From NCBI GenBank assembly GCA_018221135.1, contig JAAOYB010000023.1, positions 1 to 33,272 on the forward strand: a DNA stretch of 33,272 bases, read 5' to 3'. The translations under genes were made by a program, and so were the position numbers. The DNA comes from Candidatus Woesearchaeota archaeon. Lineage in GTDB: Archaea > Nanobdellota > Nanobdellia > Woesearchaeales > BM511. Of the stretch, positions 1-13,625 are shown one piece after another. The notes under the pieces are model-generated. The model searched no databases, was not told where the DNA came from, and saw nothing but the letters and a program-made list of their open reading frames with translations. Numbering within the stretch: the first letter of the stretch is position 1; the number at the start of each line of letters is the position of its first letter.

Positions 1-1422
1 ATGGATGAATCAGATAATTACAAAGTACGAGATCTCAGCTTAGCTGAGTGGGGAAGAAAAGAAATAGAGATAGCACAAAAAGAGATGCCAGGACTCATGA
101 GTCTAAGACAAAAATACAAAGAAGAAAAACCCTTATCAGGAGCAAGAATAACTGGTTCTTTGCATATGACTATACAAACCGCGGTCCTAATAGAAACCCT
201 AGTTGAACTAGGCGCGTATGTTAGGTGGGCGAGCTGCAATATTTTCTCAACTCAAGACCACGCAGCAGCAGCGATAGCAAAAACAGGAGTACCTGTCTTT
301 GCTTGGAAAGGAGAAACCCTAGAAGAATACTGGTGGTGCACAGAGAAAGCGCTAGAATTCAGAAATGAGCACGGAGAAATCATAGGGCCAAACCTCATAG
401 TAGATGACGGCGGAGACGCAACACTAATGATTCACAAACTAGTAAACGCAGAAAAAGACGCAGACTTCCTAAACCACGATTACTCAGATGACGGCGAAGA
501 CTACCAAGAACTAATAAAAAAAGTAAAGGACATGCACTATAACAAAAAAGGCAACTGGACGCAAATACTAGAACAACTAAAAGGAGTAAGTGAAGAAACC
601 ACAACAGGAGTCCACAGATTATACCAGATGCTTGAGAGAAACGAATTATTATTTCCAGCAATAAACGTTAACGACTCAGTAACTAAGAGCAAATTCGACA
701 ACTTATACGGCTGCAGAGAAAGCCTAGCAGACGGCATAAAAAGAGCGACAGACGTGATGATAGCCGGGAAAACAGTAGTTGTCTGCGGATACGGAGACGT
801 AGGCAAAGGCTGCGCGCAGTCAATGAGAGGTTTCGGGGCTAACGTGATAATAACCGAGATAGACCCTATATGCGCCCTGCAAGCAGCTATGGAAGGCTAC
901 AAAGTAACCACTATAGAAGACACCCTAGGCACAGCAGACATCTACGTCACAACCACAGGGAACAAAGACGTGATAAGACTCGAGCACATGCAAAGAATGA
1001 AAGACCAAGCAATCGTTTGCAACATCGGACACTTCGATAACGAAATCCAAGTAGACAAACTAAACGCCTCAGACGCAAAGAAAACCAATATCAAACCCCA
1101 AGTAGACAAATACGGGTTCCAAGAAGGAAACGAGATATTCTTGTTAGCAGAAGGAAGACTAGTCAACCTCGGCTGCGCCACGGGTCACCCAAGCTTTGTG
1201 ATGAGCAACAGCTTCACCAACCAAGTATTAGCACAAATCGACTTATGGAATAAGGAATACGAGTTAGGAGTCTACACATTACCTAAAGAATTAGATGAAG
1301 AAGTAGCACGCTTACACCTAGAAAAAATAGGTGTTAAACTAACAAGTCTCTCACAAGAACAAGCTGATTACATAGGAGTACCAATAAAAGGGCCTTTCAA
1401 ACAAGAAAACTACAGATACTAA
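1..1422 (+). CDS. ahcY: S-adenosylhomocysteinase (adenosylhomocysteinase), long form
   Basis: 473 aa; [42 protein letters not shown] Rossmann motif, C-terminal [10 protein letters not shown] typical of AHCY. Confidence 0.97.
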
Positions 1423-1485
1423 CTAATAAGTAGTGAAAAAATAGTAGTTTTTTTAAATGTGAACTGTTTTCTTTTTACGTTATCC

Positions 1486-2265
1486 ATGTTTGAAGAAAAC
1501 ACTTTTTACAAAAAAATATTAGAAAACAACCCGGTCTTAGATGCTGACAAACAAAAAGAACTATACCAACAACATCTAGACGGAGACGATAACGCTAAAG
1601 AAATCTTAATAGCTACAAATATGGGCTTAGTGCTTTCTTTATCTACAAAAATAGCTTATTCTTATGGAATAACTGATCCTAAAAGAATTGATGATGTCAT
1701 AAGCGGTGGTTTCGAAGGAATGCTTAAAGGATTTGATAGGTACGACCCAGTTAACTTTGACACAAAATTTTCTTCGTATATCGGAGATTGGATAAAATCT
1801 TATGCTACTAAATCAGCTAAGAGCGTATATTACCCAGTCATAAAAATCCCACCTCATGCTTTTAAAGATACAGATTTAATAATATATTCGCTTGACCAAG
1901 AATTATTTGATGACGAAGATGACAATGGAAAAACAATGATGGCTTTAGTTGAGGATAGAGAAGAACTACGACCTGATAATCTTGTTGAAAGAGTTTTAAT
2001 GATAGAAAAAGTATTCGAAATCATTGATGAAGCAAACTTAACACCAGACGAATTATTAACAATTAGGTTAAGTTACGGCTTAGGATACGAAAACGGTATA
2101 AGCATAGGTTTTGATTACGAATTAAATCTCACAGAAATAGGTAATATAAGAGGTTACAGTCGCCAATACTCAAGTATAGTAATGCAAAAAGCAAGAAAAA
2201 AACTAGAAGAAACCATACAACAAGCAGGACATAAACCCTCTGACTTCATTGATGTAGCAGCATAA
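1486..2265 (+). CDS. Sigma-70 family-like transcription factor (regions 2, 3.2-like linker and 4)
   Basis: ORF track starts at GTG 1459; internal ATG at 1486 (MFEENTFYKK) looks more likely. ILIATNMGLVLSLSTKIAYSYG...DDVISGGFEGMLKGFDRYDPVNFDTKFSSYIGDWIKSYA resembles sigma region 2; SLDQELFDDEDDNGKTMMALVEDREELRPDNLVER resembles 3.2; LTPDELLTIRLSYGL...LNLTEIGNIRGYSRQYSSIVMQKARKKLEE resembles the region 4 HTH. Confidence 0.85.
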   Translation: MFEENTFYKKILENNPVLDADKQKELYQQHLDGDDNAKEILIATNMGLVLSLSTKIAYSYGITDPKRIDDVISGGFEGMLKGFDRYDPVNFDTKFSSYIGDWIKSYATKSAKSVYYPVIKIPPHAFKDTDLIIYSLDQELFDDEDDNGKTMMALVEDREELRPDNLVERVLMIEKVFEIIDEANLTPDELLTIRLSYGLGYENGISIGFDYELNLTEIGNIRGYSRQYSSIVMQKARKKLEETIQQAGHKPSDFIDVAA

Positions 2266-2301: not shown

Positions 2302-2943
2302 ATGGCTAGAACTATTTTTTACAAACCAAAAAAGAGAAAAAATCAAGAACAAGTAGAGAAAAGAAACAAGGTAATCCTAGGAGTCTTCATCTCAGTCCTA
2401 ATGGCTGGAAGCATGTTTGGAATCTTCGCCTCACAAGGAGGAGACACAACGCCCTCAATAACTTATACTAATACTCTTGGAGAAGAATACGATTTTCAAA
2501 TAGGCCAAGACGGCTTCTACACATTAGAAATAGACGAAGAAGAACTAACATTCTATTTTCACCCACTAGACTTACAAAGCTTTAATAACGACACACAAAG
2601 AATAAGTAGTGCGCTAACCTCTCCGTACATAGTAAGCATATTCGACGTAGACGACCCCGACGTTACATACATAGACTTAGCACGCCTCGAATTAGCAGAG
2701 AACCTAGCCAAAAAAAACGTTTATCTAACAAGTGCGAAAACTACTAATTCAACTCTTTACAGCGCGTACCCAACACTAACATGCGAGAACGCAACTGATA
2801 ACATACCTTTCTTATACTTCAAAAAAAGCAACAAAACACAAATAATACAAGAAGGCAACTGCTTTTATCTCGAAGGCAACCAATACGATTTCTTACGCTA
2901 CAGAGACTTAATAACATACGTGTTATACGAGGTAATACCATGA
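2302..2943 (+). CDS. Single-TM anchored hypothetical protein (paralog A)
   Basis: K/R-rich N-terminus, one TM (VILGVFISVLMAGSMFGIFA), extracytoplasmic domain with two Cys (LTCENATD...EGNCFYLEG). Confidence 0.7.
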   Translation: MARTIFYKPKKRKNQEQVEKRNKVILGVFISVLMAGSMFGIFASQGGDTTPSITYTNTLGEEYDFQIGQDGFYTLEIDEEELTFYFHPLDLQSFNNDTQRISSALTSPYIVSIFDVDDPDVTYIDLARLELAENLAKKNVYLTSAKTTNSTLYSAYPTLTCENATDNIPFLYFKKSNKTQIIQEGNCFYLEGNQYDFLRYRDLITYVLYEVIP

Positions 2944-3638
2944 AAACAAATAAGAAACCAGCGCATAAGAAGATAATGAAGAAAAAAAAAGTTGATTACA
3001 TAAGCCTAAGCATACTAGTGCTAATCATAATCACACTAACATTTCTAGGGTTCAACCCAGACATCATAACCGAAATAAGAAATAACGAGACAAAATTCTT
3101 TGAAAAAGAAGAAGTCCCAGACCAATACGCGTACAACGGCTTCGAATTCACAAAAACCGATGGGATATGGTACACCCAAATAGAAAAAGACGGCGTGCCT
3201 TTCGTGATAATGACACAGTACAGCCCAAAAGAAGTAGAAGACACAAAAATAACTTATCAAGAAAACCTTTTTCCCAGCCTCACACACAGAGGAGACGAAG
3301 TATACTTAAGTTTTGATCCTAGAGAAGAAAACAAAAGCGACGTAACCGTGGCAGCTGTTGATTTTGCAAAAGGACTAAGCATAGTTTTTGGCTTAAGAGT
3401 CAACAGTGCATGCACAGTCAACGAGACAGGATGCCAAGAAGTCTTAAGCTGTGACTCAAGAAACGACACCGCGATAATAGAATTAATTCGAGACGAAATC
3501 CCAAGAGCAGAATATCAAGGTAACTGCCTTAAAGTTTACGGTACAGGGCAAGATTTAATAAGAGTTGTTAACAGATTAATGTTTGAGTGGTATGACATCA
3601 TAAAAGTTGATGAAGCCGGAAAAATATACTACCCATAA
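2940..3638 (+). CDS. Single-TM anchored hypothetical protein (paralog B)
   Basis: ATGA overlap with previous gene; K-rich N-terminus, one TM (YISLSILVLIIITLTFLGF), same C-terminal Cys pattern (LSCDSRND...QGNCLKVYGTGQDLIRVVNRLMFEWYDII). Confidence 0.7.
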   Translation: MKTNKKPAHKKIMKKKKVDYISLSILVLIIITLTFLGFNPDIITEIRNNETKFFEKEEVPDQYAYNGFEFTKTDGIWYTQIEKDGVPFVIMTQYSPKEVEDTKITYQENLFPSLTHRGDEVYLSFDPREENKSDVTVAAVDFAKGLSIVFGLRVNSACTVNETGCQEVLSCDSRNDTAIIELIRDEIPRAEYQGNCLKVYGTGQDLIRVVNRLMFEWYDIIKVDEAGKIYYP

Positions 3639-4265: not shown

Positions 4266-4613
4266 TCAAAGCTGTACTAGTCCTTCTTTTGTCATAGCAA
4301 CCAATCGAAAACCAGCACCGCTTCTTATAAGAGCAGCGATTATTGCCATGTGCTCTTTACCAGTCCCGCTGACAAGGTTAAGACCTACTTCTCCGAACAT
4401 AAAACTTAGTTTGCTCTTAATATCATTTATGACTTCTTGAATGGGCTTACCAGGATCGATTTCTATATAAATCACGGATTTATCAAATTTGAACTCAGAC
4501 TTAACCTCATGTCTTGTGACTACAAAGATCCTACTCCAATCAGTTTCGTTAATAAGCCTCTTAACGTGGCGATACCCTTTTTTCTCTGTTAAGCAAACTA
4601 CTAAATCAGTCAT
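4266..4613 (-). CDS. Small Rossmann-like protein, possibly CARF-like
   Basis: Preferred internal start MTDLVVCLTEKKG; LNLVSGTGKEHMAIIAALIRSGAGFRLVAMTKEG resembles the N(x)SGG/GT(x)(x)M motif region of CARF-type domains. Confidence 0.55.
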   Translation of the reverse strand: MTDLVVCLTEKKGYRHVKRLINETDWSRIFVVTRHEVKSEFKFDKSVIYIEIDPGKPIQEVINDIKSKLSFMFGEVGLNLVSGTGKEHMAIIAALIRSGAGFRLVAMTKEGLVQL

Positions 4614-4654
4614 AGAAAAACAAGAAAACTTTTTTTTATTTAAAAAACTATACG

Positions 4655-5068
4655 TTATTTGCAAATAATCGCGTCGCACTCCTCACAAACGAATACGCAG
4701 TGATCGTCTCCTCTGCACTTATCAGCGTCTTTAACCTTAGCAACGACCTTACCATCTTTTTCGACCATTTCAAAGTTGTGCTCAGGGCATACCTTAACAC
4801 AACGCTCGCAAGCATCACATTTCTTTTCGTCAACGCTAACGACGCGCTCACCATTTTTTTTTGGGTTTTTCTTAACTAGGATGGGCTCACCATTTTTTTC
4901 GCAATGAACAAAGCACAACCCACAATTACTGCATTTCTCGGCGTACTTAACACTACTAATTATTTGTCCTTGGTCTTCAACCATTTCAAAGACGTCTTCT
5001 CGACAGATCTGAACGCATTTCTCACAAGCTTTGCAAGTCGCGCGATCTATTTTTGATAGCTTAAGCAT
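4655..5068 (-). CDS. Ferredoxin-like polyferredoxin with duplicated 2[4Fe-4S] unit
   Basis: Cys clusters CKACEKCVQIC, CSNCGLCFVHC, CDACERCVKVC, CRGDDHCVFVCEECDAIIC. Confidence 0.88.
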   Translation of the reverse strand: MLKLSKIDRATCKACEKCVQICREDVFEMVEDQGQIISSVKYAEKCSNCGLCFVHCEKNGEPILVKKNPKKNGERVVSVDEKKCDACERCVKVCPEHNFEMVEKDGKVVAKVKDADKCRGDDHCVFVCEECDAIICK

Positions 5069-7546: not shown

Positions 7547-8671
<1,125 letters not shown>

Positions 8672-11086: not shown

Positions 11087-12280
11087 TTATTTGGTTTTGT
11101 CTTTCTCAACGACTTCCCCAGGCCTAGTACTAGTATTCGGCCAAAACTTACGACCAGGCAATATACTAGTATTAACACCGGTCATCACTCCATCACCAAT
11201 TATTGTTCCTAACTTCTTCATACCAGTATCAACTAATTCGTCTCTAAGCATTGACTTAATATTTTCTTTGTCATGACGCAGATTAGCAACCACGGTACCC
11301 GCGCCTACGTTACAACCCTCACCGATTACGCTATCTCCTACGTAGCTAAGATGAGGAATATTACTATCATCACCAATAATGGAGTTCTTAATATCGCAGC
11401 CTTGACCAACGTGGCAATTACTACCGATACTAGTACTGCCTCGAATATAACAATTAGGACCAATCTTAGAATTATCACCAATAATTACTGGGCCTTCGAT
11501 GTACGAGCCGCTCATAACAACACTGTTTCTCCCAACGCTTACTCGTCCTTTGATCATAACACCGTTTTCTATCTCGCCAGAGATATCGTTTCTTATTTCT
11601 TTTAAGACTCGCTCATTTGCTTTTAGTAAATCCCAAGGGTAACTAACAGCCATCCAACTATCTGTCTCAACAACTCTTACTTTGTAATCCTTACACAACT
11701 CGCTTATCACATCTGTGAATTCGAGTTCTCCACGCGCACTCTTCTTAACGTTTTTAAAATAATCAAAAACTTTAGGTTTCAATTTAAAAGCTGAGCAATT
11801 AACAAAATCGCTTACGTGCTCTTTTGGCTTCTCAACTATTCTTTTAAGAAAATCTTCATCTCTTAATTCTAAGATGCCAAAACGACTAGGATTCTCAACT
11901 CTTTGACCTAAGATGGCATAATCATGTTTTCTTAGTTTCTCAAAATCCTCTTTTTTGTACATGTCATCTCCTACGGCTAAGAAGAAATCGTCTTCGCCAA
12001 CAAAACTTTCTGCTTGGAGCACGGCGTGAGCTGTTCCTAACTGCTCTTTTTGCTCAACGCACACAATTCTTATCCCAGAGTACTCCTCACCCAAGGCGTC
12101 AATTATCATTTCTTTTTTGTAACCGACAACGATTACGGCCTCGTCAACCAAGCCAACTAATTCGTCAAGTAAGTGCTTAATTAACTCCTTATTACCCACT
12201 TTTAACAACGGTTTAGGCCTAGTAATAGTAAGTGGTTCGGTTCTTGTACTCTTTCCAGCCGCGAGAATCACTGCTTTCAT
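11087..12280 (-). CDS. glmU: Bifunctional sugar-1-phosphate nucleotidylyltransferase/acetyltransferase (archaeal GlmU type)
   Basis: MKAVILAAGKSTRTEPLTITRPKPLLKV, GTAHAVL, C-terminal left-handed beta-helix hexapeptides. Start moved to 12280 from 12301. Confidence 0.93.
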   Translation of the reverse strand: MKAVILAAGKSTRTEPLTITRPKPLLKVGNKELIKHLLDELVGLVDEAVIVVGYKKEMIIDALGEEYSGIRIVCVEQKEQLGTAHAVLQAESFVGEDDFFLAVGDDMYKKEDFEKLRKHDYAILGQRVENPSRFGILELRDEDFLKRIVEKPKEHVSDFVNCSAFKLKPKVFDYFKNVKKSARGELEFTDVISELCKDYKVRVVETDSWMAVSYPWDLLKANERVLKEIRNDISGEIENGVMIKGRVSVGRNSVVMSGSYIEGPVIIGDNSKIGPNCYIRGSTSIGSNCHVGQGCDIKNSIIGDDSNIPHLSYVGDSVIGEGCNVGAGTVVANLRHDKENIKSMLRDELVDTGMKKLGTIIGDGVMTGVNTSILPGRKFWPNTSTRPGEVVEKDKTK

Positions 12281-12284
12281 TTTT

Positions 12285-13625
12285 TTAGTTTGTTTCCTCA
12301 ACGATTTTTTTTGAGATCGTATCAGCTATCCTTTTTATTTCTTCCTCGTCGCTTCCTTCAACCATGACGCGACACAAATTCTCGGTTCCGCTGTAGCGAA
12401 CAAGGATTCTTCCATCGAGGTTCTTAGAGAAATCCTTAACCAAATAACTAGTTTCTTTTAATTCATCAAGAGGCTTCTTCTCTTTGACTTTGACGTTAAT
12501 CAATACTTGAGGATACTTTACTAATTTATTTCTAAGCTCGGATAAGCGAACCTTTTTCTCTTTTAGTATCATAAGGATTTGCAAAGCCGTGATGGTTCCG
12601 TCCCCTGTAGTGGTGTGATCAGAGAGTATGATATGCCCTGATTGCTCCCCGCCCAATACGAAATCGTTGTTTTTCATCTCTTCAATAACGTAGCGGTCCC
12701 CAACAGCGGTTTGCACCAACTTAATATTTTTTGCTTCCAAAAACTTTTTTAAACCTACGTTGTTCATAACCGTGCTCACAACGATATTATTTCTTAATTT
12801 TTTCTTCTCAAATAAGTATTCTGCGAGGATTGCTAAGATGTGATCTCCATCTAAGACTCCGCCTTTTTCATCAACTAGTATGACTCTGTCTGCGTCTCCA
12901 TCAAGAGCTATGCCTAAATCAGCTTTTTCTTCTAAGACTCTTTGTTTTATTATCTCAGGGTACAAGGCCCCGCAACTCATATTAATGTTTTTGCCGTTTG
13001 GTCGATTATTAAGAACAATGACTTGCGCTCCTAGTTCCTCAAATATTAACGGCGCGATTTTGTAAGCGGCTCCGTTAGCGCAATCAACAACGATTCTTAA
13101 TCCTTTCAAAACCTTGTTCTTAATCGTGCTCTTAGCAAATTCGATATACCTACCAGCGGCGGCGTCTATACGATGAGCTCTTCCTATTTTCTCACCAACA
13201 TAATTCTTAGTTTCTATTTTCTCACCAAAGACCAAGTTTTCTATCATTTTTTCTTTTTCGTCATTTAATTTATAGCCGTCTTTATCAAAGAATTTAATGC
13301 CGTTATCCTCAAAGTTGTTATGGGACGCGCTAATAACTATTCCGCAGTCAGCGGCGAAGCTCTTAGTAAGGTGGGCAATCGCGGGTGTCGGCATAGGACC
13401 TACGAGTAATACGTCTGCGCCCATACTAATAATCCCGCTTGTAAGAGCGTATTCGATCATGTAACCAGAAAGGCGTGTGTCTTTGCCAATGAGTATTTTT
13501 GGTCTTGGTTTTCCGTTTCTAAAAATCTCGGCGGCGGCTTGGCCTAGTCTTAGTGCTATCTCAGCGCTTATTGGGTGCGTATTAGCTAATCCTCTAACCC
13601 CATCAGTCCCAAACAATTTTTTCAT
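12285..13625 (-). CDS. glmM: Phosphoglucosamine mutase
   Basis: MKKLFGTDGVRGLANTHPISAEIALRLG, ISASHNNFEDNGIK, ALDGDADRVILVDEKG, VRYSGTENLCRVMVEG. Confidence 0.96.
   Translation of the reverse strand: MKKLFGTDGVRGLANTHPISAEIALRLGQAAAEIFRNGKPRPKILIGKDTRLSGYMIEYALTSGIISMGADVLLVGPMPTPAIAHLTKSFAADCGIVISASHNNFEDNGIKFFDKDGYKLNDEKEKMIENLVFGEKIETKNYVGEKIGRAHRIDAAAGRYIEFAKSTIKNKVLKGLRIVVDCANGAAYKIAPLIFEELGAQVIVLNNRPNGKNINMSCGALYPEIIKQRVLEEKADLGIALDGDADRVILVDEKGGVLDGDHILAILAEYLFEKKKLRNNIVVSTVMNNVGLKKFLEAKNIKLVQTAVGDRYVIEEMKNNDFVLGGEQSGHIILSDHTTTGDGTITALQILMILKEKKVRLSELRNKLVKYPQVLINVKVKEKKPLDELKETSYLVKDFSKNLDGRILVRYSGTENLCRVMVEGSDEEEIKRIADTISKKIVEETN

Follow-up and report, generated by a model that had tools for sequence, protein, structure and literature searches.

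A derived sigma-70 family protein in a woesearchaeal genome that also encodes TBP and TFB

Woesearchaeota have been reported to carry sigma-70 genes (fam00359) with particular frequency, their control being left unclear; for this set mis-binning was ruled out and anti-sigma factors were not found (Castelle et al. 2021, PMC8204110). The occurrence of sigma-70 proteins in Woesearchaeota has been a known phenomenon since then, and the premise of an earlier note on the DNA described here, that sigma factors are bacterial and not archaeal, is outdated. No functional study of archaeal sigmas was found in searches of the open literature. Among bacterial sigmas, ECF factors have regions 2 and 4 only (PMC6372665), and archaeal TFB combines contacts to promoter DNA with a B-reader and B-linker that engage the RNAP active site (PMC7289017). 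Sigma and TFB/TBP are two separate solutions to transcription initiation, and a lineage that holds both, together with an archaeal RNAP only, allows testing whether a sigma works on a polymerase of the other type. The sigmas of the whole order, from RpoD-like proteins to stripped-down forms like the one considered here, are a natural series for that question.

The window, by which we mean the whole stretch of 33,272 nucleotides that was analysed, is the entire contig 55 of a 1.05-Mb genome that is 95% complete and 1% contaminated. Its sigma gene runs on the forward strand from an ATG at 1486 to a stop at 2265, 1.5 kb from the contig end, and encodes 259 amino acids in a frame that is intact and free of internal stops; no other sigma of the assembly exceeds the cut-off. 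A TATA-like box (TTTTTAAATG, 1450..1459, forward strand), a predicted promoter, precedes the ATG by ~27-36 nt, and we infer from its position a fit with a leaderless archaeal transcript; an alternative start, GTG at 1459, would overlap the box. Upstream lies the gene for adenosylhomocysteinase (ahcY, 1..1422, forward strand). Two forward-strand genes for uncharacterised proteins follow downstream, the first with one N-terminal hydrophobic segment and its own TATA-like box, both noted by eye (2302..2943), the second with one hydrophobic segment, also read by eye (2940..3638). A Pfam scan of these two products returned no match, and no anti-sigma candidate adjoins the sigma gene. The same 33-kb contig carries archaeal markers, among them L34e, a DEAD-ERCC4 (Hef-type) helicase-nuclease, archaeal MinD and archaeal GlmU, and profile searches of the host genome find TFB, TBP and archaeal RpoA'. 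At 0.235, the GC3 of the sigma gene is the lowest among the 19 window ORFs compared (others 0.318-0.425).

Further genes of the window, all on the reverse strand, are recorded here as separate observations. A tRNA-guanine transglycosylase (7547-8641) is of the bacterial queuosine type, with TIGR00430 over cut-off and the archaeosine model TIGR00432 far below; queuosine genes in DPANN were described by Castelle et al. 2021 (PMC8204110). GlmM (12285-13625) and an adjoining GlmU-like gene (11087-12301) make up a mixed amino-sugar pathway, in which GlmM scores over the cut-off of the general (bacterial) glmM model and below that of the archaeal one, and the GlmU-like gene is of archaeal type. A multi-[4Fe-4S] ferredoxin-like gene (4655-5068) overlaps a gene for what looks by eye like a ligand-sensing Rossmann-like domain (4266-4679).

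The window protein belongs to the sigma-70 family, a membership confirmed by curated profile matches and not by the residues of region 2.2. TIGR02937, the sigma70-ECF superfamily model, matches with 44.8 bits (E 9.9e-12) against a cut-off of 42.9 bits, PHROG 351 ('RNA polymerase sigma factor') matches with E 2.8e-18, and SigA and RpoS chains are matched in the PDB with E 7.5e-8 to 2e-6, all of which upholds the earlier proposal of a sigma-70-like factor in an archaeal genome. The Pfam comparison came out less cleanly: Sigma70_r2 (E 7.9e-4) and Sigma70_r4 (E 0.07) match at the right positions, yet both stay under their gathering scores. An AlphaFold prediction of the protein alone, which had been suggested as a check, returned a sigma-like fold (mean pLDDT 65.7 for the whole model) in which domain 2 is helical and fairly confident (pLDDT mostly 72-87), the linker is disordered and domain 4 is again helical, and Foldseek places the model closest to sigma-32, sigma-S and sigma-A in the PDB (E 9e-7). 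The predicted structure serves as supporting evidence only, since its input alignment of 24 bacterial RpoD sequences biases the prediction in favour of such an outcome, and since a single-sequence control was poor and of low confidence.

The protein had been read as following sigma-70 order from end to end. The motifs quoted for that reading are present, but most of region 3 (3.0-3.1) is not: a profile of archaeal sigmas aligns to residues 8-132 and 135-246 and skips the ~42 positions that make up this region, which gives the region order 1.2 - 2 - (3.0 remnant) - 3.2 - 4. A region 1.2-like segment (residues 8-40, 1507..1605) is delimited by the profile match from residue 8, the alignment and an RpoS model that begins at residue 7; region 2 (residues 41-112, 1606..1821) by the profile and PDB alignment and the helical predicted domain. 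From the profile alignment, a remnant of region 3.0 (IKIPPHAF..., 1822..1884) follows, with the rest of 3.0-3.1 deleted. The second profile segment (135-246) and the SigA alignment then place a region 3.2-like acidic linker (SLDQELFDDEDDNGKTMMALVEDREELRPDN, 1888..1995), low in confidence or disordered in the AlphaFold model, and the region 4 helix-turn-helix (residues 171-246, 1996..2223) is given by profile match, model and alignment; all these segments lie on the forward strand. None of the 42 region 3 profile positions is filled in the window protein, and region 3 is present in all 68 archaeal relatives examined and in 79 of 80 bacterial RpoD proteins.

Residues are numbered here after E. 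coli sigma-70 (RpoD), and the presumed contact roles of these positions (core, -10, -35) follow sigma-70 studies. The window protein keeps the equivalents of D403, F427, Y430, W434, T440, R584 and K593. From the core-binding set of region 2.2 only D403 survives, and the changes Q406S, E407G and N409F make RNAP binding in the bacterial style less likely. The -10 recognition set retains F427, Y430 and W434 and has changed at W433D, Q437S and R441K; in the -35 helix R584 alone is kept, next to E585Q, R586Y, R588S and Q589I. Judged by these alignments, the protein is a derived sigma that has undergone deletion of region 3 and no longer has the core-contact triad or the -35 helix. It retains a putative region 1.2 and some of the -10 surface, as well as region 4 and the 3.2-like linker.

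A search of related genomes finds a sigma over cut-off in 143 of the 353 genomes of the same order (~40%), a one-contig genome included, so that the gene is no lone contaminant; at E 1e-6 the count rises to 169 of 353, and a single genome can have as many as seven matches. Several of these sigmas are RpoD-like: their regions 1.2, 2, 3 and 4 all exceed the Pfam thresholds, and they have long N-terminal extensions. Two very long proteins (L058 4316-9541, 1741 aa; L063 5344-8745, 1133 aa) carry their sigma domains terminally or internally and have unassigned N-terminal parts, and in other loci two or three sigma paralogues lie in tandem in the same direction (L068 2557-6994, L069 86-4498, L070 8450-10194, L061 8298-11025). 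Across 68 archaeal sigmas with a mean pairwise identity of 33%, a sample chosen by profile score and thus favouring conserved members, the positions of bacterial contacts to core, -10 and -35 are kept in 68-99%, far more than the 48% averaged over columns. Core contacts are kept in 93% (D403), 73% (Q406), 79% (E407) and 84% (N409) of the 67-68 sequences, -10 contacts in 93% (F427), 91% (Y430), 68% (W433) and 87% (W434), and the -35 helix R584-Q589 in 85-89%. This conservation of contact residues in 68 diverged archaeal relatives is new here and points to selection on a sigma-like function.

The polymerase available to these proteins is of a different make. Bacterial beta' is absent from 352 of the 353 genomes of the order, which leaves the archaeal RNAP as the only one within reach of the sigmas. 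The single bacterial rpoC (L196, G231:C1:4763-8362, 1491 bits) shares its genome with an archaeal RpoA' and is probably contamination. In the archaeal clamp helices, I, L, D and H stand at E. coli beta' R275, E295, R297 and A302, the sigma-contact positions of the bacterial enzyme. Binding of the window protein to the clamp helices, which the earlier note had suggested, is conjectural given these differences and its changes at Q406, E407 and N409. The helices are alike in 29 genomes with and 30 genomes without a sigma, and the bacterial sigma-contact residues are missing in all 29; co-evolution of the clamp helices with sigma presence was looked for in this comparison and not seen. In bacteria the flap-tip segment of RpoB holds sigma region 4; the segment found in E. 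coli is missing in the host genome and the relatives shown. That the resident RNAP has archaeal clamp helices, alike with and without a sigma, and lacks the flap tip is a second new observation.

Archaeal TATA boxes located between -35 and -26 relative to the start codon number ~0.61 per gene for 28 sigma genes and ~0.37 for 288 other genes, against a background of ~0.05 per 5 nt, and indicate that archaeal systems host and probably express the sigma genes. In all archaeal genomes tested, TATA shows a strong peak at a distance of 26-33 nt upstream of the ATG, which the bacteria lack. Promoters of the form TTGACA-N16-18-TATAAT are not in excess in genomes with a sigma (1.41 per genome in 81 genomes, reversed control 1.16; 1.70 per genome in 101 genomes without a sigma, reversed control 0.95), although counts of exact consensus promoters are a weak test. 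With one mismatch per hexamer allowed, upstream regions of the bacterial control show a clear peak at 17-bp spacing (16 pairs vs ~3.8 elsewhere), and none appears in four archaeal genomes with a sigma, where counts are small; one genome without a sigma shows a few pairs. The combination of strong archaeal TATA boxes with sigma-type promoters that were not found in the genomes tested is likewise new here, and implies that TBP/TFB runs most genes and that any sigma regulon is small or uses other elements.

In five relatives, a protein with a signal peptide, a single transmembrane segment and a cytoplasmic winged helix adjoins the sigma genes (L065 10345-11073, L068 1817-2524, L069 4565-5275, L073 11181-11888, L044 near 65-850); it is DUF7343 in the two of the five that were scanned, and an outer domain is present. 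This conserved membrane-anchored neighbour is a candidate signal input and suggests native regulation of the sigmas. In two further cases, large HATPase_c_3 (GHKL) proteins adjoin RpoD-like sigma genes in two genomes (L056 5320-7359, L072 11065-13446); they are reminiscent of GHKL anti-sigma kinases but belong to a different GHKL family. Neither a DUF7343-type nor an HATPase_c_3 gene was seen beside the window sigma, and the neighbours in relatives are to be taken as leads and not as functional evidence.

The likeliest single account, which we put forward tentatively, is that of a chromosomal sigma with bacterial ancestors that this archaeon and many relatives keep alongside TBP/TFB, and that would play a minor, specialised part on the cell's own archaeal RNAP, either in initiation itself or as a modulator. 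Its gene would be transcribed by TBP/TFB from the leaderless promoter to which the observed box may belong; domain 2 would dock at or close to the coiled coil of the clamp, a site of TFB and TFE action as well, the 3.2-like linker could enter the cleft in the manner of a B-reader, and the domain 2 aromatics together with domain 4 might read or melt a few promoters that depart from consensus. The sigma is not the main initiation system. The account draws on the sigma family and fold, the archaeal context (TFB, TBP, RpoA', L34e and the Hef-type helicase-nuclease), the availability of an archaeal RNAP only, the more frequent TATA boxes before sigma genes than before others, the retention of sigmas in the order with contacts conserved in the 68 diverged sequences, the survival of the 3.2-like linker despite the loss of region 3, and the winged-helix neighbour in five relatives. 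Against it stand the loss of Q406, E407, N409 and most -35 residues, clamp helices without the bacterial contact residues and an absent flap tip, the lack of a consensus excess or a 17-bp peak in genomes with a sigma, and the want of a close relative of exactly this protein. In a more particular version, to which we give a somewhat smaller chance, the sigma would have been domesticated as a cross-domain initiation factor that starts or steers transcription by archaeal RNAP in company with TBP/TFB; it would have shed region 3 and remodelled its core-contact surface to fit the archaeal clamp. The conflict in the data, bacterial contact residues conserved in relatives while partner residues and promoters are absent, sharpens the choice between a new docking mode and sigmas that do not serve their own cell in initiation.

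Two real rivals to a minor factor on archaeal RNAP rank below it in turn. The first, less probable and still substantial, is a repurposed DNA-binding regulator that would use the aromatics of domain 2, the helix-turn-helix of domain 4 or both to activate or repress without entering RNAP. The lost core-contact triad, W433 wedge and -35 helix would agree with such a protein, as would an RpoB without flap tip and the failure to find sigma-type promoters in relatives; a plain helix-turn-helix regulator would, however, need neither the 3.2-like linker nor region 1.2, both of which are kept here and for which we know of no use outside RNAP.

The second, rather unlikely, is that the gene was taken up, recently or at some earlier time, and is now in decay or close to neutral here, with functional copies persisting in relatives. 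It would account for the lowest GC3 of the 19 ORFs, for a long branch without close relatives, and for a patchy distribution in which two of three genomes of the same family lack a sigma, but a full-length stop-free frame, clear domain boundaries and a TATA-like box in place speak for an intact gene. The best matches within the order are near 30% identity, and a pattern search of genome-contig and viral-contig collections found no close relatives. Horizontal acquisition, as the earlier note had supposed, is plausible from the low GC3, the lack of close relatives and the bacterial family, but a tree of 92 sequences scatters the archaeal sigmas around bacterial RpoD on long branches and assigns the window protein neither a firm place nor a donor. 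A phage or plasmid origin was considered and rejected, as such matches are weak; the best phage match (28% identity, faecal scaffold MT838392) also lacks region 3, and its tree support of 77 is not reliable.

It is improbable that the archaeal sigmas act instead on a bacterial RNAP, in a partner cell or on foreign DNA. Such a role would explain why relatives conserve bacterial core, -10 and -35 residues in cells whose own RNAP lacks the partner residues and whose genomes lack such promoters, and some Woesearchaeota have been suggested to be episymbionts of bacteria (Castelle et al. 2021, PMC8204110); yet no secretion signal was seen by eye in the window protein, which has itself lost the bacterial core-contact residues, and sigma clusters adjoin native membrane regulators in some relatives. 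Bacterial or phage DNA brought in by a binning or assembly error, to which the bacterial family, the low GC and the position near the contig end might hint, is very improbable given the archaeal genes on the same contig, the completeness and low contamination of the genome, the many relatives with a sigma, the one-contig genome among them, the archaeal TATA box and the exclusion of mis-binning in the set of Castelle et al. 2021, and the earlier judgement that archaeal neighbours make contamination less likely is strengthened by the contig markers and by TBP, TFB and RpoA'.

Among the known systems close to the window protein are the fam00359 Woesearchaeota sigmas, mentioned in a short remark (PMC8204110), which are likewise sigma-70 genes in DPANN beside TBP/TFB; no anti-sigma factor was found there or beside the window gene, and what sets the window protein apart is the absence of region 3 and of the usual contact residues. 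RpoD/SigA and RpoS provide its best PDB and fold matches, and their regions 1.2, 2, 3.2 and 4 are recognisable in it; it differs from them in an identity of at most ~29%, in lacking region 3, in altered core-contact and -35 residues and in an archaeal RNAP, and with region 3 empty and R584 alone left of the -35 helix it falls outside Group 1/2 (RpoD-like). Like ECF (group 4) sigmas it links regions 2 and 4 without region 3, but the 1.2-like segment and recognisable 3.2 that it keeps, and that ECF sigmas lack, place it outside that group as well. The job proposed for it is analogous to that of archaeal TFB, from which it is distinguished by having no TFIIB-family match and by a host genome that has a separate TFB.
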